From IMG/VR virus record IMGVR_UViG_3300010392_003949, positions 1 through 26,865 of that record: a stretch of 26,865 bases of DNA; one strand, written 5' to 3'. Every line of letters starts with the position of its first letter. The stretch's first letter is position 1. The DNA is from a virus. The position numbers and the translations under genes were made by a program. Below are positions 9,936-26,865 of this stretch, piece after piece. Under the pieces are notes generated by a model, which saw nothing but the letters and a program-made list of their open reading frames with translations, searched no databases and had not been told where the DNA came from.

Positions 9936-10694
9936 ATGAAAAAATATACAACCGCCGATTTTGTAAGAATGGCTAGGGAAAAACATGGGGATAAGTATGA
10001 CTATTCATTGGTTGAGTATAAGAATAGAGAGAGTAAAGTAAAAATAATTTGTCCGAAACACGGGATTTTTGAACAAAATGCGCAAAGCCATTATCAAAAA
10101 GGACATGGATGTTTGAGATGCTCAAAACTTAGTTACGAAGATTTCTTAAAAAGGGCTCGAACAATACATGGCAACTTATTCAATTACTCATTGTTGGATT
10201 ACAAAGGGACTAGACAAAGAATTAAAGTAGCATGCCAAAATGGTCATATTTTTAGCATTAGGGCAGACAATCATTTAGCGGGAGGTGGTTGCCCAAAATG
10301 TAAAGAGTCATCCTTGGAGACAAACATGAAGGCAATCCTGATTAGAAACAAAATCCACTACAACCACCAAAAAAAGTTCAAAACATGCTATAATCCCGAA
10401 ACTGACAAAGCCCTAATTTTTGACTTCTATCTTCCTAATTATAAAACACTTATAGAAATTAATGGTCCCGCGCACTACATCAAGAATTTTTACAAATCCA
10501 GCAATGATAACTTCTCCAATAGGGTCAAAAGAGATTTAATAAAGAGGCGCTGGTGCAAAAACAACAATTACAATTTTCTCGTCATTCCATATACAAGAAC
10601 AAAAAATATGGAGGAAATATTGCTTGGCTTTATCGAGAAGAAATCTTGTTTATGCCAGCAAAGCCACCAAATGGAAGTTCCCTCGTTGACTTGA
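9936..10694 (+). CDS. Free-standing homing-type nuclease: two zinc-ribbon modules + PD-(D/E)XK-like domain
   Basis: 252 residues. The N-terminal half has two copies of a DNA-binding zinc module of the type found in phage mobile nucleases: F-x-x-x-A-R/RA, then HG, then YS, then Y, then I/V-x-C. Zinc ligands are Cys39, His42, Cys59, Cys62 and Cys100, His104, Cys119, Cys122. The C-terminal half has FDFYLPNYKTLIEINGPAHY with Asp163 and Glu174 and Asn176 in the place of the usual Lys, as in Vsr/DUF559-like nucleases. It is the only plus-strand gene inside a minus-strand operon and it splits the lambda L-K neighbourhood. There is no clear Shine-Dalgarno. Its last 21 codons run antisense over the end of the L gene (10630-10694). 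I infer a selfish, site-specific element; its target site is unknown. Confidence 0.85.
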   Translation: MKKYTTADFVRMAREKHGDKYDYSLVEYKNRESKVKIICPKHGIFEQNAQSHYQKGHGCLRCSKLSYEDFLKRARTIHGNLFNYSLLDYKGTRQRIKVACQNGHIFSIRADNHLAGGGCPKCKESSLETNMKAILIRNKIHYNHQKKFKTCYNPETDKALIFDFYLPNYKTLIEINGPAHYIKNFYKSSNDNFSNRVKRDLIKRRWCKNNNYNFLVIPYTRTKNMEEILLGFIEKKSCLCQQSHQMEVPSLT

Positions 10695-11761: not shown

Positions 11762-12328
11762 TTACAAAGTAAGTTGATAAGGTTCTGGTTTTACTTGCCT
11801 AAAAATAGCCCTAATATCGAAGTGTTCTCTTGGCTTGGTCTGGGTTTCCCACTGTTCGCAAACAAACATCTTATTGCTCATAAATGGCTTGGGAGGGTTA
11901 AACGCAAACGATTCCACCCCTGCTCTTTGATGAAGAAAGTGCAATATGGCCGTTGTTTCATAAACGTCGCGGGTTAAAAATTGCAAATCATAATTGAGAA
12001 GATTGGTATTTATACCATCCTGGGCTCTGTGTTCAACACCAACACCAAATCTGACTATTTTCAATCTTGGCTGCTGAGTCATCGTTGTTGAGTATGAAGG
12101 GGACCAGATAAAATGTTTTGTCGTTACTCCATTGATTCCCACCTCGGCTTTTGTCCATTTTTCGGAATTGTAGCCATTTATTGTAAAATCACTCAATGAT
12201 TTTTGATGATCCTTGAGGGCATAGTAATAAATATGGCTATTGGCTGGATGCTCAACAATTTCATGCCTTTTTATATTAAAAGATGCCGAACTCCATGTCT
12301 TTATGTCATATATAGAAGGCTGCGCCAT
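11762..12328 (-). CDS. M: Minor tail protein M with N-terminal sugar-binding-like extension
   Basis: 188 residues; lambda gpM is about 110. The gpM core is residues 86-188: PRLKIVRFGVGVEHRAQDG, then NTNLLNYDLQF, ETTAILHFLHQRAG, F-x-F-NPP, FVCEQWE. gpM joins the distal tail tube to L. The N-terminal 45 residues (WSSASFNIKRHEIVEHP, then SHIYYYALKDH) have the aromatic and Y-Y-Y-A-L pattern of a small CBM5/12-like domain, absent from lambda gpM. It is the first gene of the minus-strand block. ATG 12328 follows a doubled ribosome-binding site (AAAGGAATAAGG) and a GTGTAAAA element. A second M-type protein lies on the opposite strand at 14295-14897 with the same two-part layout. Confidence 0.86.
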   Translation of the reverse strand: MAQPSIYDIKTWSSASFNIKRHEIVEHPANSHIYYYALKDHQKSLSDFTINGYNSEKWTKAEVGINGVTTKHFIWSPSYSTTMTQQPRLKIVRFGVGVEHRAQDGINTNLLNYDLQFLTRDVYETTAILHFLHQRAGVESFAFNPPKPFMSNKMFVCEQWETQTKPREHFDIRAIFRQVKPEPYQLTL

Positions 12329-12456: not shown

Positions 12457-14259
12457 ATGTCAAATTTTCAGCCAATCCACAGACTAAATAGGGAAAATGT
12501 ATTTATTTACCTAAATGACACTCCCATTTCAGGCGCCCAAAGCCTGTCGGCCTCTTGGAATAGCAATCTTTCCAATATCAAGTTCCTTGGGATGCAGCAG
12601 CAGGAAATTGTTGAAAAACCAATTGGTCCCCAGGTTGGAACAGTTACCCTAAATTCGCTTGTTGTAAATCAAGACCAATTTATCAACTTTACAGGAGAGG
12701 CGGGACTAAATGGTTATGTATTGGACCCAGAATCAACAAACAAAAACTATTCCTTCACTTCTGGATTCCTAACGTCTTATAATTCAAGAGCTTCCATCAA
12801 CTCAATTCCCGAGATTAACACCACCTTCACAGTCCTTGGGAACATGGGCAATCTCCCAACTGGGGGGCCTCTTGAGTTAAATTTTCAACAAAATAGGTCC
12901 AATTTAAATAATAGCGGCGAATATAGCATAGCCGACCCAAATAGAATTTCAATCAGTCTTGATGATTATGACACAAACCGGGTGTTAAATTATGAACTTA
13001 TTATAAATGTTGACAGAAACAGCTTTTACTCCATTGGGGGAAGATCGGCAAGCGCTGTAAAAATCAATTATCCAATCGAAGTCACCACAACCTTTCAATT
13101 TGAGATTGACAATTATGACTTTCGAAACATGAAGGATAGTCCATGTAAGGAGAAGATTGAAAATCTATCCATTGGACTTAATAAATACCAGGGTGGACAA
13201 ATTTTGTCTTATGATTTTTCCGGCATGAAACTGATTGCCGAAACTTACTCAGCAACCACTGAGGGAAATATTGTTGTTGATGCAACTTATAGGACTTATT
13301 TGAAAAAACTGGATTCGGTTCTAAATGCAAAGCCAGCGCTGCCAAATTTTGATTTTGATTCAAATCAGAATTCCACAACTGGCGTGGCGGCAATTATTTA
13401 TGGGACTGGTGTTTGTGATATAGAATTGGGCGATGATCCCGAATTTTGTTTTGAATGTATTAATGATACCGTTTGTGGCAGGGGGGTTTGCACACCAACG
13501 CCCTCCAATACTCCATCAACATCAATATCGCCAAGCGCCTCAAACACGCCGTCAAACACGCCAACAAATACTCCAACGCCAAGTGTCACACCAAGTATCT
13601 CTGTAACGCCAACACCATCAAACACCCCAACAAATACCCCAACACCGACACCATCTGAAGGAGCACCGCCACCGACACCGCCAGCTTCACCCCCGGCGTC
13701 ACCACCGAATTCGCCACCCAATTCACCACCGGCGTCTCCGCCAAATTCACCGCCCGCTTCTCAACCGGCTGTTGATCCAGAATGTTTTGATGCTTTCGGG
13801 GGCGAAAGGATTCCAACGGTAATTAATGTTCATTTAGCTTTTACTCTTAGGTCAGATTGCCACGGGAATGGGACTAGAGATACTAGCTGTGATGATTTAG
13901 ACACCCTCCTTGATAATGATATTGAGTGTGGCGTTTCCAATGTCACGGTAACTCTTGAAGCATACTCCGAGCAAGAAGGGCTCCAAGTAACATGTGGGTC
14001 AGCAAAGACAATTAATTATGTTTTGGATGGAAATGACGAAAACTCTACACTATTGAATGAAGGTGTCGATGTTCCAATAATTGGTTGTTGTTGCGCACAA
14101 GGTATTAAGTATAGCTATACAACAAGATGCACAAATGATTGCGCTCCAGATTGTGATAGTAATGAAAATTTCCTTGATGTATCGAATGCGACACAAGAAT
14201 GTAATAGCTTTGATGGATGTTGCCCTGAAAATGGTGTTATTATTTCCATAACAGGATAA
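12457..14259 (+). CDS. Tail tube-like protein with Pro/Thr/Ser linker and Cys-rich C-terminal domain
   Basis: 600 residues in three parts. Part 1 (about 1-325) is beta-rich and starts with a strand-turn-strand like tail-tube proteins (NVFIYLNDTPISGAQSLSASW). It also has a YSFTSGFLTSYNSRASINSIPEINTTF-type stretch (positions 12754-12834) that recurs, diverged, in the products at 14897 and 15745. Part 2 (about 346-440) is a low-complexity linker of TPS/NTP repeats followed by PPASPPNSPP repeats. Part 3 (about 443-600) has about 14 Cys, including CCC and two CC-type clusters; five more Cys precede the linker. Such cysteine content is rare in phage tails and suggests a compact domain held by metal or disulphides. 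I infer a structural protein with a surface-exposed display domain, but the role is not proven. The linker is a good O-glycosylation acceptor. Confidence 0.78.
   Translation: MSNFQPIHRLNRENVFIYLNDTPISGAQSLSASWNSNLSNIKFLGMQQQEIVEKPIGPQVGTVTLNSLVVNQDQFINFTGEAGLNGYVLDPESTNKNYSFTSGFLTSYNSRASINSIPEINTTFTVLGNMGNLPTGGPLELNFQQNRSNLNNSGEYSIADPNRISISLDDYDTNRVLNYELIINVDRNSFYSIGGRSASAVKINYPIEVTTTFQFEIDNYDFRNMKDSPCKEKIENLSIGLNKYQGGQILSYDFSGMKLIAETYSATTEGNIVVDATYRTYLKKLDSVLNAKPALPNFDFDSNQNSTTGVAAIIYGTGVCDIELGDDPEFCFECINDTVCGRGVCTPTPSNTPSTSISPSASNTPSNTPTNTPTPSVTPSISVTPTPSNTPTNTPTPTPSEGAPPPTPPASPPASPPNSPPNSPPASPPNSPPASQPAVDPECFDAFGGERIPTVINVHLAFTLRSDCHGNGTRDTSCDDLDTLLDNDIECGVSNVTVTLEAYSEQEGLQVTCGSAKTINYVLDGNDENSTLLNEGVDVPIIGCCCAQGIKYSYTTRCTNDCAPDCDSNENFLDVSNATQECNSFDGCCPENGVIISITG
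13492..13779 (+). repeat. Low-complexity Pro/Thr/Ser linker coding region
   Basis: Codons 346-441 of the tube-like gene. The first half is built of TPTPS, NTPS and NTPT units and the second half of PPAS and PPNS units. The two halves use different repeat types, so they probably expanded separately. Extended, unfolded, Thr/Ser-rich linkers of this kind are typical O-glycan carriers in other systems. Confidence 0.8.
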
Positions 14260-14294: not shown

Positions 14295-14897
14295 ATGGCT
14301 TTACCAGTTTGGCAAAGTGAAAAGGCATACGAGCAATATGACATAATAGAAGAGCCAAATGGATCAAACATTTACTATTATGCTCTTATAAAGCACACCG
14401 CATCATCAACTTCGGGAAGTTCCGGTTCCTCCGGTAGTTCTGGAAGCTCGGGCTCTGCGGGCTCTTTTTACACTGACTTGGTAAAGTGGGCCGGAATCCT
14501 TGAAATAAATGGCAAAAAAATACCACACTTCTTTTGGAGGCCGGATAATAACACAAAATACACAGTTAGAACAGAGGTCAGAAAAGTTCAATTTGGGGAC
14601 GGCTATGAGCAAAGGTCAAAAACAAATATTGACAATATGCTCTTAACTCTTCAACTATCATTCTCAAATCGCCCATACAAAGAGACCGTGGCAATACTCC
14701 ATTTCCTGAACCAAAGGCGCGGCTATGAACAGTTTGTCTATATTCCGCCCTGTATTTACACAACTTATAATTACAACTTTCCAAAAAGATTCGTTTGTAA
14801 GTCTTGGGACCATACAACGGTTTTTAACGAGAATAATAGAATAACAGCGACATTTGAAGAGGTGCCGCCAGAAACCAAATTTGAGGTGATACGCTAA
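14295..14897 (+). CDS. Second minor tail protein M paralogue, with (GSS)n linker
   Basis: 200 residues. Three parts: a CBM5/12-like N-terminal module (5-35: VWQSEKAYEQYDIIEEPNGS, then IYYYALIKH); a flexible linker of GSS repeats (about 37-57); and a gpM core (about 64-200) with VRKVQFGDGYEQRSK, ETVAILHFLNQRRGYEQF, FVCKSW. It is clearly a paralogue of the M protein at 11762-12328: both share the N-terminal module and ILHFL-x-QR-x-G, but this copy is on the other strand and has gained the linker. Its FGDGYEQR motif is closer to the classic gpM than that of the other copy. The linker has the same composition as the fibre at 25176. ATG 14295 has TAAAGG 8 bases upstream. It overlaps the next gene by one base pair triplet end (TAATG). 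Confidence 0.86.
   Translation: MALPVWQSEKAYEQYDIIEEPNGSNIYYYALIKHTASSTSGSSGSSGSSGSSGSAGSFYTDLVKWAGILEINGKKIPHFFWRPDNNTKYTVRTEVRKVQFGDGYEQRSKTNIDNMLLTLQLSFSNRPYKETVAILHFLNQRRGYEQFVYIPPCIYTTYNYNFPKRFVCKSWDHTTVFNENNRITATFEEVPPETKFEVIR
14403..14465 (+). repeat. (Gly-Ser-Ser)n linker coding region
   Basis: Codons 37-57 of the second M-type gene, consisting of four GSS units plus SAGS. The serine codons are mixed (AGT, TCC, TCA, AGC, TCG, TCT), so the unit did not arise by recent slippage of one short DNA repeat. It is the same kind of sequence as the fibre repeats at 25368 and 25911. Confidence 0.85.
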
Positions 14898-19031: not shown

Positions 19032-22000
19032 ATGAAGGTAAAGGCGCACACATGCTTTCTTGGAAGAACGGGTTATGCCCATCATTCAAGATCATTTTTT
19101 ACAAAATTATCTGACTATTGTGATCTGAAGGTAAGAAATTATACTGTCGATGATGACATGTACTCCTATCTCACTGATAGACAAAAAGATATAGTAATAG
19201 AACAGAGCCTTCATGACTCAAATGACCAAAGAATAATTCGAGAACACCCCCCATTTTGGAAAGAGGAAATTGAAGCATTTGAACAAGATATTGATATTGT
19301 CTTGGAGGTTCATTCTCATTACTACTTTTATCAAAATTATAGCGCCAAAACAAAGATTGCTTATATTGTCTGGGAATCCACCCTTATGCAGCAGGGGTTC
19401 TTTGACATGATTAAGGACAAGTTTGATTATTTTTGGTGTCCATCAGAATGGCAAAAACAGGCAATGATAAGTCAGGGTTGGGATAAGAATAAGATTTTTG
19501 TTGTCCCGGAGGGGGTTGAGCCAGAACTAAAACCCGTCAATAACACCGAATACCTCTGCAATCAAAAGAAGTTTAGGTTTTTTCTTGCCGGTAGATGGGA
19601 CTATAGAAAATCGACAAGTGAAATAATCAAGGCTTTTTTGGAAGAATTTAAGGACAATGATGATGTTGAATTGGTGTGTTCAATTGACAATAATCATGCT
19701 CAAGATGGATTAACGACAGAACAAAGACTTGTTAAAGAACGTTTTGTTGATGATAAGATAAAAATAATTCATTTTCCAGACAGGGGGGAATATATTAGGT
19801 TGATGCAATATTCCCATTGTCATGTTTCTTGTTCAAGGTCCGAGGGCTGGGGTTTAACTATCTCTGACTCAATAGCTTGCGGAACACCGACAATTTATGC
19901 TCATTGCACCGCACCAATTGACTTTGCATCCGAAATTGGAATTCCAGTAAAAGCCGACGCCCAAAGACCAGCCAAAGACTGCGTGTTTTTGCAAGGCGTT
20001 GATGGAAATTACTATGAACCGGACTTTAATGACTTAAAAAGGCAGATGCGTCATGTTTATGATAATTTCAAAGAATTGAAGGAAAAGGCGGTTGAGTATG
20101 CCCCTAAATTTTCGGAAAAGTATTCATGGGGCAATGCCGCCAAAAAAGCCCACAAAATTTTAAAACAAATATACTCCGGGAACAGGCCAAATGTAAACCC
20201 CCCCGCCTTCTTTGAGGAAGTCACAAAAAAGAAAAACCCAAAAATTGCAATGATAACCCCCCATCTTTCCACGGGGGGCGCGCCAGAATATTTATTTCAA
20301 CTAATCCAAACATTTGACAATCAAGACAACATACATGTTGTAGAGTTAAGTCAATTTAGCAAAAAATACACCATTCAAAGGGAAAAAATCGCGGCAATAT
20401 TGCCAAAAGAAAACTTTCATACTTTGGGTTATGTTCTGGAAGATGAGGATAAGCAAGAGAAGTTTGACCAAAGGTTGCTAAAGTTAAAGCAAATTCTTGA
20501 GGAAATAGCCCCGGATGTTGTTTATTTGAATGAGCAGTTGGAGACGGTTGAGTATAAGCCAATCAATGATGAGTTAATTGAGTATCTGTATCGGAATTAT
20601 CATATTGTCGAAAATTGCCACAATAAGAAGATTTCTGAAAAACGACACCAACCCAACCAATACCTGTTTTGTTGTCAAGAATTGGTCGATGAGGCAGTAA
20701 GTTTGGGGTATGCGCCAGAAAAATATGTTTATGATTTGCCGATTGTAACCAAAAAACGCCCCCCAAGGAACGATTCTTTAAGAAATCTTGGCCTCGATCC
20801 TCAAAAAAAACATGTATTAAATGTTGGTATTCTTGGCAAAAACAAAAACCAAGATTACATTATTGATTTGGCAAGACAAAACCCTGAAGTTGAATTTCAT
20901 TTTATTGGGAACAACTGTTTTTCCAATAGTATGAGAAACACACAAGAGGATATCCAAAAGTTAAAAAACTGCACATTTTGGGGTGAGAGAGATGATGTTG
21001 GTAAATTCATGGAATGCATGGATATTTTCTTGTTTCCGTCCCTTTCAGAAGTTAATCCAATTTCTGTCAAAGAAGCCCTTTCTTATGGTATGGAGATTTG
21101 GGTTAACGATTTGCCCTGCTATGAAAAATATTTTACCCAGGGACTCAATATTAAGAAAATTGACGAATGCAGCTTTACAAATGATAAGAAAATTGCCTGG
21201 GTTTTTTGTTTTACCCAAGACTACGAATACTATGCTGACAATTTAATCAAGGAGTTGGGAGCCAAGTCAAGATTTGATATTATTCCTTATTCTGTGAATT
21301 TTAACAAAGATGGATGCAAAAGAATTGACATAGATCTATCTAATGATACGGGAAACATTTGGGAAAATCTAAAGTATAAGAATTTTAACAAATACTATTC
21401 AAAATTTAAAGCCGCGATTGATTCCACAAGTCTGGATTACGATCAATTTATCTTTATTGACGTTGACATGATTCCTCTTGGTCAGCAGGATCAAATATCA
21501 AAACATTTCAACAAACTTGCCAATTATCCACTTTTTATTAGATATTACCACAATCATATAAATAGCTGGACAGAATACAATGGTAAAAAAACCGAAGGTC
21601 ACTATGGGCAAGAAGTTGAAAAATTACTTGGAGCAAGAAGAAATCTTGATGTTTTGCTGGCAACCGGAATATTTATCTACAACAAAAACAGCGTGCCATT
21701 TTTTGAAGATTGTTTAAACACGTATAAAGAATTAAAAGTTAAAGATATAACTGAATTCTGTGATGATAATGCAATTTCAGAAGAGAGGGTGGCCAATGGG
21801 CTGTTCTGGAAAAAGGGATATAAAAAATTCATTCCCATAACATGGCAGAATAAAGACCATAAAAATTACCATGGAGATTTCAAAAAATATTTAGATCAGG
21901 GCTTTGACATAGTTTATGACATTGAAACTAAACAAGAATTGTTTCTTCATGGACCTGATCCACACTTTGCTAAAAAAACTTCCGAAGCCTTAAATAAAGT

Positions 22001-25000
22001 GGTTAACCAAATGAACGACTCTGAGAACTTAATGATAGTTGCGCATCTTGATGATGAATGTATTTTTGGCGGTAATTTACTTATAGGAAACGAAAAATGG
22101 ACCATTGTTGTTGCAACTCAGCCCTCCAAGGAGAGATTTGACGATTTTAAGAAGGTAATAAAAGAAACCTCTTCCCTGAAATCTGTTGTAATTCTTGGCT
22201 TGGAGGATGATATCAACAAGCAGCTTGATGAAAATCTTTTACACGACCAAATAAAAGAGATTATTGATAAAAGTAACTTTGGCAAAATTATTACCCATAA
22301 TCCAGTTGGGGAATATGGGCACCCACACCATAGAAACGTTTTCAATGCCGTAAAGCGTTTGAATAGAGAGTTTTATGTATTCTGTAAAGACCCTTCGTTT
22401 ACAAACAATAGACAACATTTGCTTAATTGTTATGAGTCTCAACAGGAAATCATTGACCAACTAAAAGAAAAAAATGGCGATTGGTATATCTCTAATGATC
22501 AGTCAACAAACTACATAGACAATCCCGGAATTTCAGAATATGATCTCAATTTGGATAAAAATCCTTTCATTCCATGTTTTTCCAAATCACCTCAAAGCAA
22601 CCTCGGGAAAGAATGTTTTGTAATTACCTCATATTGTAACACTAAGGAAAAACTTGAAGAATTAAAAAAATGTATAGCAAATCTTCCAAAAGATATTGAC
22701 ATAATTCTGTATTCGCCACTTGAGTTGGAGAAAGAGTATCAAGATCTGGTTGATAAATATATCTTTAATAACGAAAATCCAGTTTTTTCCATTGAGGAGA
22801 GATGCCTTCTTTTTTGGCACTTTATAGGACCTGATAAAATAACAGCATGTGTGCCTGATTATGGATATGCCGCAATATATCAAATTAAACATGCTTTTTT
22901 GGCTGCGTGCTCATTTGGCTATGAAACCATTCATTTTATTAACTATGATTGCTTTATAAATAAGGAGTTTTTCCAAAGTCACAGAGACAATTTGCTTAGA
23001 GAAAAGAGCGGGCTTTACTACTTAACTGAAAATAATTATGTAAATATGTTGTTCTTCTCCCTAAAGAATATTAGTTCAAATAGAGATTTTTTTCACAAAG
23101 TAAATAAAAACCATTACATAAAACTCGAAGATGGCGTGGCAGAACATTATCTAACAGACCTTTTTGGAAAATGTGGTCTTTCGCCATTGGAAAGCCCAAA
23201 TGATACAAATATTACTTCAACAATTGATTTTGACCCCGACCCTATAAAAGAGTATCAAACTCAAAAGTTCAAATTTTTCTTTTGTATGGAAGATTTTGGC
23301 GATTTTAATAGATCCAGCAAACTTACGCTTTGTTTTTATGATATTAAGGAGCCCCTTGATGGCCTTTTGGTCAAAACAAATAAAGGAACAGTAGATATTG
23401 GCAACATCCACGAGAATACATTCATTAACACCGAATTTGAATATAACTCCGTTTGTGGTTTGTCAATTTATGAAAATGGTCAAAATGTTTTTAATGTAAA
23501 GGATATTCATTACAACGGCAGGAAAAATTACCTTAAGAGAACGGAAAAAAAATACAATGACCAAAAATATATTTTTATTGACTCAAATGCCCTGGGAGAT
23601 ACGTTGTCCTGGATTCCCTATGTTGATGAATACAGAAAAGTAAATGATTGTAAGGTGATTTGCTATACAATTTGGGCTGATTTATTCAAACAAGAATATC
23701 CAGAAGTAACATTTATTTCGGAAGAAAGCCAAGATTACAGCTTGATTCAAGAGTGTTCTGAAAAGATTATTGTCGGACTTGATCTTGACAAACACAATTA
23801 TACAGAATACTCATTGCAAGAGCACGCCTCAAAAATTTTAGGTCTTAATCACAGAGAAATAGTCCCGAAAGTAACCGTAAAAAACAAAACCAACAACTTT
23901 AAGAAAAAGTATGTCTGTATTGCGACACAAAGCACATCCCAGGCAAAGTATTGGCAAAAAGAATACTGGGAAGAGGTTATAAAATTCCTCAAGAAAGAGG
24001 GGTATGACGTTGTGTGCATAGACAAGTATGAAAGTTTTGGAATTGAGGGTCATTATAATTTTATGCCAGATGGGTGTATTAACAAAACTGGTGAAATTGA
24101 CATAAATGATCGCATAACAGATATTCATAATTGTGAATTTTTCATTGGATTAAGTTCGGGGCTGTCTTGGTTAGCTTGGGCTCTTGGAAAGCCGGTTATA
24201 ATGATTTCTGGATTTACAGACCCTATAAATGAATTTTATAATCCATATAGAGTCATCAATACGAATGTTTGCAACTCTTGTTGGAATGACAAGGAATGTA
24301 AGTTTGATAGATCCAATTGGCTTTGGTGTCCAAGAAATAAAAATTTTGAGTGTTCAAAAGGTATTAAGCCAGATATGGTTATAGAAAAGGCCAAAAAAAT
24401 AATCCATAATTTGGCGCCAAAAATCTTTTTTACCGAAAGGGGGGAAGTGGATTTTTCCAAGTATGATTATAATCAACCAATCTTTGAAACTGGCAAAAAG
24501 TACGGATGGGAGGTGGCATGTTACCAAGAAATATTCATGCATGATGATTATACAAAGAAATTTTCGGTCGAAAAGGACGACATTGTTATTGATGTCGGGG
24601 CGAATATTGGGTTTTTTACAAGATTTGCTGTTGAAAATGGCGCGCAAAAGGTTTATTCAATAGAGCCCAACAAAACATATTATGACTTATTGAAGAAAAA
24701 TACACGCAACCTCAAGAACGTGAAAACACTAAATATGGCCATAATGGGAGAAAATTCCAATATTGAATTTTATGAAAATGGTCATTTTGGAGGATCGTCC
24801 ATACATGAACCAAAAAGTGAAGATCTAAAGAAGAACTACAAGGTAAAATGCCTCAATTTGGACACATTTATGGAACGAAACAAAATAAATAGAATTGATT
24901 TTCTCAAGGTAGATGTTGAGGGGGCCGAAATTGATGTTTTTAATGGCATTTCTGATAAAAACTTGGAAAAAGTAAGAAAAATCGCCCTTGAATATCACAA

Positions 25001-25127
25001 CAATATTTTTTACAAAGATAAATCCACAAGAGACAATTTTATTAAAAGATTTGTTGATTTGGGCTTTAATCCATATACCCTTTTTACCGCAACAGACAAT
25101 CTTCAAATGATATATTTTTGGAAGTAG
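19032..25127 (+). CDS. Seven-domain sugar-modifying enzyme: GT4-GT4-GT-PIG-L-GT-heptosyltransferase-FkbM methyltransferase
   Basis: 2031 residues in one frame. Order and key residues: (A) 1-375 GT4-type transferase, SEGWGL with Glu271 and Asp279; (B) 403-715 second GT4, HLSTGG (411-416) and E-x7-E at 673/681; (C) 717-995 GT-A-like, DVD at 810-812; (D) 1000-1150 PIG-L/LmbE deacetylase, AHLDDE (1004-1009) and GHPHH (1096-1100); (E) 1193-1410 GT-A-like segment, NYD at 1304-1306; (F) 1415-1815 autotransporter O-heptosyltransferase type, SNALGDT (1518-1524), STSQAKYW (1634-1641) and a cysteine finger Cys1747, 1750, 1756, 1766, 1774; (G) 1825-2031 FkbM methyltransferase, DVGANIG (1854-1860), Glu1878, KVDVEGAE (1959-1966). 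No Shine-Dalgarno before ATG 19032. In TibC-type enzymes domain F adds heptose to serines of a repeat protein; the fibre next door is the obvious substrate. Activity and sugar are inferred. Confidence 0.92.
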   Translation: MKVKAHTCFLGRTGYAHHSRSFFTKLSDYCDLKVRNYTVDDDMYSYLTDRQKDIVIEQSLHDSNDQRIIREHPPFWKEEIEAFEQDIDIVLEVHSHYYFYQNYSAKTKIAYIVWESTLMQQGFFDMIKDKFDYFWCPSEWQKQAMISQGWDKNKIFVVPEGVEPELKPVNNTEYLCNQKKFRFFLAGRWDYRKSTSEIIKAFLEEFKDNDDVELVCSIDNNHAQDGLTTEQRLVKERFVDDKIKIIHFPDRGEYIRLMQYSHCHVSCSRSEGWGLTISDSIACGTPTIYAHCTAPIDFASEIGIPVKADAQRPAKDCVFLQGVDGNYYEPDFNDLKRQMRHVYDNFKELKEKAVEYAPKFSEKYSWGNAAKKAHKILKQIYSGNRPNVNPPAFFEEVTKKKNPKIAMITPHLSTGGAPEYLFQLIQTFDNQDNIHVVELSQFSKKYTIQREKIAAILPKENFHTLGYVLEDEDKQEKFDQRLLKLKQILEEIAPDVVYLNEQLETVEYKPINDELIEYLYRNYHIVENCHNKKISEKRHQPNQYLFCCQELVDEAVSLGYAPEKYVYDLPIVTKKRPPRNDSLRNLGLDPQKKHVLNVGILGKNKNQDYIIDLARQNPEVEFHFIGNNCFSNSMRNTQEDIQKLKNCTFWGERDDVGKFMECMDIFLFPSLSEVNPISVKEALSYGMEIWVNDLPCYEKYFTQGLNIKKIDECSFTNDKKIAWVFCFTQDYEYYADNLIKELGAKSRFDIIPYSVNFNKDGCKRIDIDLSNDTGNIWENLKYKNFNKYYSKFKAAIDSTSLDYDQFIFIDVDMIPLGQQDQISKHFNKLANYPLFIRYYHNHINSWTEYNGKKTEGHYGQEVEKLLGARRNLDVLLATGIFIYNKNSVPFFEDCLNTYKELKVKDITEFCDDNAISEERVANGLFWKKGYKKFIPITWQNKDHKNYHGDFKKYLDQGFDIVYDIETKQELFLHGPDPHFAKKTSEALNKVVNQMNDSENLMIVAHLDDECIFGGNLLIGNEKWTIVVATQPSKERFDDFKKVIKETSSLKSVVILGLEDDINKQLDENLLHDQIKEIIDKSNFGKIITHNPVGEYGHPHHRNVFNAVKRLNREFYVFCKDPSFTNNRQHLLNCYESQQEIIDQLKEKNGDWYISNDQSTNYIDNPGISEYDLNLDKNPFIPCFSKSPQSNLGKECFVITSYCNTKEKLEELKKCIANLPKDIDIILYSPLELEKEYQDLVDKYIFNNENPVFSIEERCLLFWHFIGPDKITACVPDYGYAAIYQIKHAFLAACSFGYETIHFINYDCFINKEFFQSHRDNLLREKSGLYYLTENNYVNMLFFSLKNISSNRDFFHKVNKNHYIKLEDGVAEHYLTDLFGKCGLSPLESPNDTNITSTIDFDPDPIKEYQTQKFKFFFCMEDFGDFNRSSKLTLCFYDIKEPLDGLLVKTNKGTVDIGNIHENTFINTEFEYNSVCGLSIYENGQNVFNVKDIHYNGRKNYLKRTEKKYNDQKYIFIDSNALGDTLSWIPYVDEYRKVNDCKVICYTIWADLFKQEYPEVTFISEESQDYSLIQECSEKIIVGLDLDKHNYTEYSLQEHASKILGLNHREIVPKVTVKNKTNNFKKKYVCIATQSTSQAKYWQKEYWEEVIKFLKKEGYDVVCIDKYESFGIEGHYNFMPDGCINKTGEIDINDRITDIHNCEFFIGLSSGLSWLAWALGKPVIMISGFTDPINEFYNPYRVINTNVCNSCWNDKECKFDRSNWLWCPRNKNFECSKGIKPDMVIEKAKKIIHNLAPKIFFTERGEVDFSKYDYNQPIFETGKKYGWEVACYQEIFMHDDYTKKFSVEKDDIVIDVGANIGFFTRFAVENGAQKVYSIEPNKTYYDLLKKNTRNLKNVKTLNMAIMGENSNIEFYENGHFGGSSIHEPKSEDLKKNYKVKCLNLDTFMERNKINRIDFLKVDVEGAEIDVFNGISDKNLEKVRKIALEYHNNIFYKDKSTRDNFIKRFVDLGFNPYTLFTATDNLQMIYFWK

Positions 25128-25175: not shown

Positions 25176-26865
25176 ATGTCAGAAATAACAAGGTTTTTCA
25201 TTGGCGACAGGATATTTGCACCATTGGATGCCACGGGGGATTATGTCAATAAATATCAAGATGGCGCCATATTCACCACACAGGAGCAGCCATACAGACA
25301 ATATGTATTAAGAAGCGGACAATGGCAACAACTTACCTCAACTGGGGATGGTGCGGCTGGCGTCCCTGGAACATCTGGAACTAGCGGAACATCAGGTACT
25401 TCTGGCACGTCTGGATCATCTGGAAGTTCTGGTTCTTCGGGATCTTCCGGCACAGATGGAACAAGTGGAAGTTCGGGTTCATCTGGAACATCAGGAGCAA
25501 ATGGATCTTCCGGCCTATTGTCTTTAACTGGAGATCAAGACAGGGGTATTATTGTTTTAAATGGTTCGGCGCCAAATGGTTATGTATCTGAATATGTTGT
25601 AATAAGCGGAAGCGGGCTGGGGGTCAATACTCTTGAGCCGTCTGGGTGGGTCCACGTTCATCAAAGCGGTGGCGGTTGGCCACATCTTTTTTTAACAAAT
25701 GAAAATCAAATAGTTGTTTCTGTTTCCGGTTCCGGTGTTTTTATGCCACAGATTAAATCTGGTGACATAGAAGCATTTACTTTTATTACTACGGGTGATA
25801 ATGGGGAAATTGTTCATACACATGTTAAAAATCTACCTTCTGGTGTTGGAAGTCAATTTATAACAGTTGAAAGTGATGGAAGTCTCGCTCTTAGACCATC
25901 GGATGCTCAAGGAACATCTGGAACGTCTGGAAGTTCAGGCACTTCTGGTTCATCCGGGACAAGTGGCACTTCGGCAGTTGGCGTTACTTCTGGAACAAGT
26001 GGCTCGTCCGGTTCTTCTGGAACAGATGGAACTAGCGGTAGCTCAGGATCTTCTGGAACAGATGGCTCTTCGGGAAATGATGGAACTTCTGGGTCATCCG
26101 GGTCCTCAGGAGCAGATGGAACTAGCGGCAGCTCAGGATCTTCTGGAACAGATGGCTCTTCTGGAACAGACGGTTCTTCTGGTGGAGATGGAACATCCGG
26201 TTCGTCTGGATCATCTGGCGCTGACGGAACATCTGGTTCATCGGGTTCTTCAGGGGTAGATGGAACTTCGGGTTCGTCCGGTAGTTCTGGAACAGACGGT
26301 TCTTCAGGTGGAGATGGAACGAGTGGTTCATCGGGGTCTTCCGGCGTTGATGGAACAAGCGGAAGTTCAGGTTCTTCTGGCTTTGATGGCAATGCTGGAA
26401 CAAGCGGATCATCCGGTTCGTCTGGAACTGATGGGACAAGTGGTAGTTCTGGCTCATCTGGAACTGATGGTTCATCCGGGGGTGATGGGACCTCAGGCTC
26501 CTCTGGTTCTTCTGGGGTAGATGGAACATCTGGTTCATCAGGCTCTTCCGGCGTGGATGGAACTTCTGGTTCTTCCGGCTCATCTGGAACCGATGGCTCA
26601 TCTGGTGGTGATGGAACAAGTGGATCATCTGGTTCATCTGGAGTTGACGGAACATCTGGGTCTTCGGGATCTTCCGGTGTTGATGGTACGTCTGGATCTT
26701 CTGGAAGTTCTGGTGTTGACGGGACAAGTGGTAGTTCTGGCTCATCTGGAACAGACGGTTCTTCTGGTGGAGATGGAACATCCGGTTCGTCTGGATCATC
26801 TGGCGCTGACGGAACATCTGGTTCATCGGGTTCTTCAGGGGTAGATGGAACTTCGGGTTCGTCCG
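25176..26865 (+). CDS. Collagen-like Gly-X-Y tail fibre, 3'-partial
   Basis: Open from ATG 25176 to the right edge, 563 codons seen and no stop. Residues 1-64 form an N-terminal domain (MSEITRFFIGDRIFAPLDAT, ending in QPYRQYVLRSGQWQQLT) that probably binds the tail. Residues 65-113 are a first Gly-X-Y block; 114-245 a globular beta-rich domain with several His (WVHVHQ, GWPHLF, VHTHVKN), which may bind metal; 246-563 a long second Gly-X-Y block built of GTSGSSGSSG-x-DG units, x being T, A, V or F. X and Y are nearly always Ser, Thr or Asp; Pro is absent, unlike most collagens, so the helix would need other stabilisation, for example glycans on Thr/Ser. One interruption, TSAVGVTSG, at about 25968-25994. 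Translation is likely very strong from the doubled ribosome-binding site. Receptor-binding tip not in the window. Confidence 0.9.
   Translation, partial: MSEITRFFIGDRIFAPLDATGDYVNKYQDGAIFTTQEQPYRQYVLRSGQWQQLTSTGDGAAGVPGTSGTSGTSGTSGTSGSSGSSGSSGSSGTDGTSGSSGSSGTSGANGSSGLLSLTGDQDRGIIVLNGSAPNGYVSEYVVISGSGLGVNTLEPSGWVHVHQSGGGWPHLFLTNENQIVVSVSGSGVFMPQIKSGDIEAFTFITTGDNGEIVHTHVKNLPSGVGSQFITVESDGSLALRPSDAQGTSGTSGSSGTSGSSGTSGTSAVGVTSGTSGSSGSSGTDGTSGSSGSSGTDGSSGNDGTSGSSGSSGADGTSGSSGSSGTDGSSGTDGSSGGDGTSGSSGSSGADGTSGSSGSSGVDGTSGSSGSSGTDGSSGGDGTSGSSGSSGVDGTSGSSGSSGFDGNAGTSGSSGSSGTDGTSGSSGSSGTDGSSGGDGTSGSSGSSGVDGTSGSSGSSGVDGTSGSSGSSGTDGSSGGDGTSGSSGSSGVDGTSGSSGSSGVDGTSGSSGSSGVDGTSGSSGSSGTDGSSGGDGTSGSSGSSGADGTSGSSGSSGVDGTSGSS
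25368..25514 (+). repeat. First Gly-X-Y repeat block of the fibre
   Basis: 49 codons of GTS, GSS, GTD and GAN triplets. Separated from the longer block by a globular domain of about 130 residues, so the fibre has a short stalk, a knob and a long stalk. Confidence 0.88.
26160..26280 (+). repeat. 121-base exact direct repeat, copy 1
   Basis: Identical base for base to 26745-26865, 585 bases downstream. The base before it (T at 26159, A at 26744) differs. Given the free variation of serine codons elsewhere, the identity means recent duplication, gene conversion or an assembly effect. Confidence 0.93.
26745..26865 (+). repeat. 121-base exact direct repeat, copy 2, ending at the window edge
   Basis: Second copy of 26160-26280. 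The window stops exactly where the repeat copy stops being checkable, as expected when an assembler cannot cross a repeat. The true number of repeat units in the fibre is therefore unknown. Confidence 0.93.

Follow-up and report, generated by a model that had tools for sequence, protein, structure and literature searches.

The 26,865-nucleotide stretch of viral DNA analysed here (IMG/VR record IMGVR_UViG_3300010392_003949; referred to below as the window) encodes an unbroken 2031-aa multi-enzyme protein (19032-25127, +), one of whose domains matches the BAHT (TibC/AAH) family of protein O-heptosyltransferases. This match, taken together with the serine-rich collagen-like fibre gene that adjoins the ORF, suggests that these phages probably decorate the fibres with which they bind the host with sugars.

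A BAHT domain with an intact active site and iron finger

A preliminary description of the window had placed an autotransporter-heptosyltransferase-type domain at 23580-24370. That stretch is in frame, corresponds to residues 1517-1780 of the ORF at 19032-25127 (+) and contains all of the motifs quoted for it, but the domain is longer: the catalytic part, as delimited by TIGR04414, runs from 23526 to 24401 (+) and is preceded at ~23244-23510 (+) by an N-terminal eight-strand beta barrel comparable to TibC residues 1-97 (strands at residues 9-97 of an AlphaFold model, with the TibC alignment starting from model residue 6). Residues 1499-1790 match TIGR04414, the autotransporter strand-loop-strand O-heptosyltransferase family, with an E-value of 4.6e-86 and 289.1 bits against a cut-off of 200 (NCBIfam), and the best solved relative of the domain is TibC (4rap_A; E 2.5e-56 over 268 residues), the runner-up being LPS heptosyltransferase II at 0.0029. 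The LPS heptosyltransferase (WaaC/WaaF) models stay under their cut-offs (TIGR02193, 30.8 vs 185.3 bits; TIGR02195, 24.6 vs 134.6), and a plain LPS heptosyltransferase is ruled out by profile, sequence and structure scores that are all far weaker than those for BAHT/TibC. The family assignment made in the preliminary description is upheld by the profile search, and we regard it as nearly certain.

The residues with assigned roles in TibC are Asp110 (candidate base), Thr226, Lys230, Arg286, and Trp305 (donor binding), and Cys339, 342, 358, and 370 (iron ligands required for assembly and activity; PMC4358343). The residues aligned with D110, T226, K230, R286, and W305 in the window protein are D1523, T1635, K1639, R1694, and W1713, all of them kept, and the four iron ligands align one to one with C1747, C1750, C1766, and C1774 (24270-24353, +). 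The cysteine cluster listed earlier is right in these four members but not in the fifth, C1756, which lies opposite TibC Leu348, outside the finger, and is missing in most relatives. None of the four finger cysteines varies among the phage (68/68), bacterial (79/79), or tandem-paralogue (20/20) sequences, and across the divergent phage clade they are, like the catalytic base and the Lys230 equivalent, essentially invariant. This conservation and the intact 2031-aa frame argue against the domain being a decayed or inactive relic of a hypervariable region, a reading that draws on the hypervariability of phage glycosyltransferase regions (PMC7029224) and that we hold to be extremely unlikely.

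The equivalent of Arg286, which in TibC reads the donor adenine (PMC4358343), is missing in 11 of the 68 phage copies, the window copy not among them, and hence donors may vary within the phage clade. At the stereoselectivity site the window has S1708, where TibC has P300 and AAH has S294; AAH, with Ser at this site, takes both ADP-heptose epimers (PMC4358343). By homology to TibC and AAH, the ADP-heptose donor and serine acceptor suggested in the preliminary description would both hold. The TibC thumb-tip residues F265 and V266 are not conserved in the window domain, and thus a TibC-like dodecamer may not form.

A TibC-like fold is predicted for the BAHT unit. The AlphaFold model, built for residues 1397-1815 from an input alignment with 62 relatives, has a mean pLDDT of 85 (~90 in the finger region), shows an eight-stranded region before the catalytic part in agreement with the TibC barrel, and has a short predicted hairpin at model residues 272-281, whose tip residues are unlike those of the TibC thumb. 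With this model, Foldseek ranked TibC chains top (E ~1e-30), with LPS heptosyltransferases at 1e-10 or weaker, and VIA-align placed model residues 6-401 on TibC chain residues 18-393, from the N-terminal barrel through the C-terminus (Z 34.4, 344 residues), followed by GT9 and LPS enzymes, which align in the catalytic part alone (Z 19-22).

Multi-enzyme context and comparison with known systems

According to Pfam and NCBIfam, the modules of the 2031-aa ORF are arranged in the order GT4, GT4, unassigned, PIG-L, unassigned, BAHT, FkbM. The first GT4-type glycosyltransferase (19512-20147, PF20706 span) is related to modules that open many of the phage relatives; the others are a second GT4 glycosyltransferase (20778-21143; PF00534, whole-protein E 4.9e-25), a PIG-L/LmbE-type deacetylase (22029-22358; PF02585, 1.5e-9), and an FkbM-type methyltransferase (24585-25064; PF05050, 2.8e-23; TIGR01444, 1.3e-31), all on the plus strand, and Pfam gave no match for the ORF segments at residues ~736-992 and ~1191-1400. 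The fused modules (GT4, FkbM, and others) reappear in relatives in varying order, and phage BAHT copies are found both stand-alone (~388 aa) and fused. A near-identical contig (L273) stops short of the ORF. DNA glycosylation is a frequent role of phage glycosyltransferases (PMC12619734), and the ORF might contribute to it, but its domains are unlike DNA glycosyltransferases, it lies in the tail module, and its family is of the protein type, all of which make such a role very improbable.

The BAHT unit resembles TibC and AAH in its predicted GT-B heptosyltransferase fold, N-terminal barrel, catalytic Asp, donor residues, and four-Cys finger, and AAH also in the Ser at the stereoselectivity site. 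Unlike them, it is one part of a multi-enzyme polypeptide, it is encoded in a phage tail module beside a collagen-like fibre, its thumb-tip residues differ, and the phage copies form a separate clade; moreover, the known acceptors of TibC are beta-helices, whereas the candidate acceptor here is a collagen-like chain. No partner autotransporter was found among the window ORFs scanned, the contig being a fragment and Pfam covering part of the ORFs.

Other viruses provide partial parallels. In the chlorovirus PBCV-1, A064R fuses two glycosyltransferases to a methyltransferase and targets the glycans on the virus's capsid protein (PMC9614988); it is thus a virus-encoded glycosyltransferase/methyltransferase fusion like the window ORF, but it works on algal-virus N-glycans with another enzyme set and without a heptosyl starter. 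Mimivirus L230 hydroxylates lysine and adds glucose in collagen-like proteins of the virus that are low in proline (PMC9614988), and resembles the window BAHT as a viral enzyme with a collagen-like, low-proline viral substrate (here a candidate one), although it is of a different enzyme type and forms a different linkage. Mycobacteriophage virions are reported to have glycans on their capsid and tail-tube subunits, to which a shielding role was ascribed (as quoted in PMC12619734), in contrast to the collagen-like fibre considered here.

Spread and phylogeny of phage BAHT enzymes

An alignment-based scan of viral contigs yielded at least 591 with confirmed BAHT relatives. The phage records with BAHT, whether isolate or reconstructed, include Microcystis phage Mel-JY01 and three very large uncultured phages, and BAHT is present in 22 of 38 T4-like contigs in a sample picked by terminase. 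Phylogenetic analysis of 147 sequences put 65 phage copies together with two nominally bacterial contigs in one supported group and the bacterial copies in another, so the domain is of a phage lineage set apart from the bacterial one. Recent transfer from one bacterium is unsupported, as the phage copies make a separate clade relative to a bacterial side that comprised the best 80 of 293 matches. The two exceptions, L038 (uncultured bacterium bin) and L105 (Chloroflexi MAG), look like phage DNA; judging from the sequences, L105 carries T4-like genes, and in L038, which holds the nearest homologue, a GSS-rich fibre ORF, similar at its C-terminus to tail-fibre chaperone domains, ends 3 bp upstream of the enzyme. 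Shorter tandem BAHT-like copies that lack the N-terminal barrel are also seen (L132:10134-11018 and similar genes elsewhere); the 20 compared all retain the four finger cysteines, with Lys230 or Arg286 altered in several.

PHROGs contains no family for the BAHT domain at E 0.001. The BFVD entries that match the BAHT model best are A0A6J5SVC1 and A0A7S9XE01 (Virus NIOZ-UU157), the former being named 'Glycosyltransferase Aah/TibC [uncultured Caudovirales phage]', hence the presence of BAHT in phages is already on record as a database name. For both entries the literature searched gave no target, fusion logic or neighbourhood beyond the database names, and no paper on phage BAHTs was found in the open-licence literature. 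The enzyme family is known, therefore, while the fusion, the genomic setting and the probable target appear to be undescribed.

The adjoining collagen-like fibre and its co-variation with the enzyme

The candidate acceptor starts 49 bp past the end of the BAHT ORF. This gene (25176-26865, +), which is cut by the contig end, encodes a collagen-like tail-fibre-type protein as judged by matches to PHROG tail fiber families, a PF01391 match over the cut-off and its composition: there are 116 Gly-X-Y triplets, in which GSS and GTS predominate, with ~1.24 Ser per triplet and Pro nearly absent. The first 59 residues form an N-terminal cap (25176-25352, +) with 11 invariant positions in common with the fibres of a second phage group, where BAHT is again directly upstream. 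The window ORFs other than those of BAHT and the fibre have no match among the second group's ORFs at E 1e-4, and thus the enzyme-fibre pairing is present in a second phage type. The cap had no match in isolate phages. In the second phage group, a conserved gene for a DUF6165 protein (L125:9861-10250 and equivalents) separates BAHT from the fibre.

Among 14 contigs retrieved by the fibre cap alone, BAHT lies immediately upstream in 12, every one of which has Ser/Thr-rich GXY repeats; the two without BAHT have the same cap and the repeats are absent. When the second-group set was retrieved by the gene upstream of the cassette, repeats were present in 15/15 loci with BAHT and 0/3 without it (Fisher p=0.0012; 0.0027 after merging duplicates), and the BAHT-negative loci miss exactly the block between the upstream marker and the fibre. 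The upstream protein of L290, L291, and L292 shares 90-94% identity with that of L289, with L291 having both the enzyme and the repeats and the others neither. This co-variation represents one or two independent changes on the tree, a number for which significance on the tree is unattainable, and hence we treat it as a strong natural contrast, not as proof.

Runs of Ser/Thr-rich GXY triplets occur at 12 of 111 phage BAHT loci, several of which are close relatives, and at none of the 78 bacterial BAHT loci or the 77 terminase loci compared. Manual counting in the T4-like contigs, which are fragments from the terminase sample, gave collagen matches in 12/22 with BAHT vs 4/16 without, a genome-wide association that is weak and confounded. 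No such fibre is nearby in 54 of the 68 BAHT locus clusters, in part owing to short contigs, several of which, the window included, break inside repeats. The repeats near one BAHT clade (L024) are Thr-rich, with Ser almost absent.

The main rival explanation is that the polypeptide remodels the host surface polysaccharide (LPS/O-chain) and thereby excludes competing phages. Polysaccharide pathways are among the settings from which GT4, PIG-L, and FkbM modules are known. Such a role has been published for SAR11 myophages (pelagimyophages), whose hypervariable tail-fibre region contains glycosyltransferase genes and rfaE (PMC7029224). However, the domain groups with the protein O-heptosyltransferases rather than with the LPS heptosyltransferases, and it adjoins the fibre gene and varies with the fibre repeats, so that we consider remodelling of the host surface unlikely. 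Glycosylation of a different protein, either another protein of the virion with Ser/Thr-rich stretches, encoded at 12457-14259 or at 14295-14897, or a protein on the host surface, for instance an autotransporter, is a rather unlikely alternative. The former virion candidate has a long Pro/Thr/Ser-rich stretch and the latter a (GSS)n linker, and bacterial BAHTs modify autotransporters (PMC4358343), but neither virion candidate has relatives in the compared BAHT loci, whereas the fibre cap recurs beside BAHT.

A proposed assembly line for a fibre glycan

O-heptosylation of the phage fibre, with the fibre itself as the acceptor, is the reading that we favour with moderate confidence, and from the evidence above we infer an activity, a donor and acceptor, an order of steps and a biological effect. 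The BAHT unit would move heptose from ADP-heptose onto the serine (perhaps threonine) hydroxyls of the Gly-Ser/Thr-Ser fibre repeats, heptose attachment to serine being established for TibC/AAH (PMC4358343). The first sugar would then be extended by the two GT4 modules, deacetylated by the PIG-L module, and methylated by the FkbM module of the same polypeptide, and the 2031-aa ORF would serve as a glycan assembly line for the phage's own tail fibre. Candidate effects of such a glycan are that it stabilises the proline-free collagen-like fibre, shields it, or alters host binding. The phage BAHT subfamily has a new architecture and probably a new kind of acceptor. A broader proposition, for and against which we see the case as evenly balanced, is that phages have a widespread branch of protein O-heptosyltransferases specific to them, whose members assemble glycans of several sugars on collagen-like tail fibres and are exchanged as cassettes with the Ser/Thr repeats; fibre-region glycosyltransferase clusters, until now interpreted as modifying host LPS, would then often be fibre-glycosylation systems.

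If true, phages have their own protein O-glycosylation machinery of the bacterial-adhesin type, applied to a host-contacting organelle, and a gene that hundreds of contigs of uncultured phages carry would gain a target and a chemistry. This would also provide a testable alternative to the LPS-modification view of fibre-region glycosyltransferases, hint at a means of stabilising or shielding collagen-like fibres that have no proline, and make the phage BAHT and fibre naturally linked enzyme/acceptor pairs.

Sugar donor and host

The Gram-negative host to which the preliminary description pointed fits the lambda-type tail genes recognised in the window (gpL, gpM, NlpC/P60, JAB, and J-like), although these fall short of proof; the J-like protein has only distant matches, mostly in phages of Gram-negative hosts. 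The donor may come from the LPS pathway of the host; none of the window genes was recognisable as one for ADP-heptose synthesis. The rfaE gene has been recorded in pelagimyophages and was interpreted there as serving LPS modification (PMC7029224). Among the records of relatives, a minority have rfaE-domain-like matches, none over the family cut-off: a 735-kb phage has a full-length heptose-7-phosphate-kinase-like gene, L004 a match resembling the adenylyltransferase domain, and a 238-kb record adjoining pieces of both the kinase-like and the adenylyltransferase-like domains. With such matches confined to a minority and below the cut-off, a universal phage-made supply of ADP-heptose is unsupported.

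The BAHT-carrying isolate Microcystis phage Mel-JY01 (L035), which also encodes a GTS/GSS protein, is a cyanophage in which an rfaE-like gene was looked for and not found. Cyanobacterial LPS is not known to contain heptose. Beside another phage BAHT (L031:6406-9345) are an alcohol dehydrogenase, a TPP-dependent enzyme, and a short PfkB-type sugar kinase, a cluster that possibly synthesises an unusual sugar donor.

Other genes in the window

The protein encoded at 12457-14259 (+) is mucin-like in its long Pro/Thr/Ser-rich stretch and has a cysteine-rich C-terminus, and its N-terminal half has no relatives in isolate phages. The gene at 14295-14897 (+) is a second minor-tail-M-like gene (phrog_14) into which the (GSS)n linker is inserted, the other M-like gene being at 11762-12328 (-). 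The lone plus-strand ORF within the minus-strand lambda-type tail operon (9936-10694, +) overlaps the 3' end of the gpL-like gene; it has sub-threshold matches only, to DUF4379/DUF723, and may be an inserted mobile (homing-endonuclease-like) gene.
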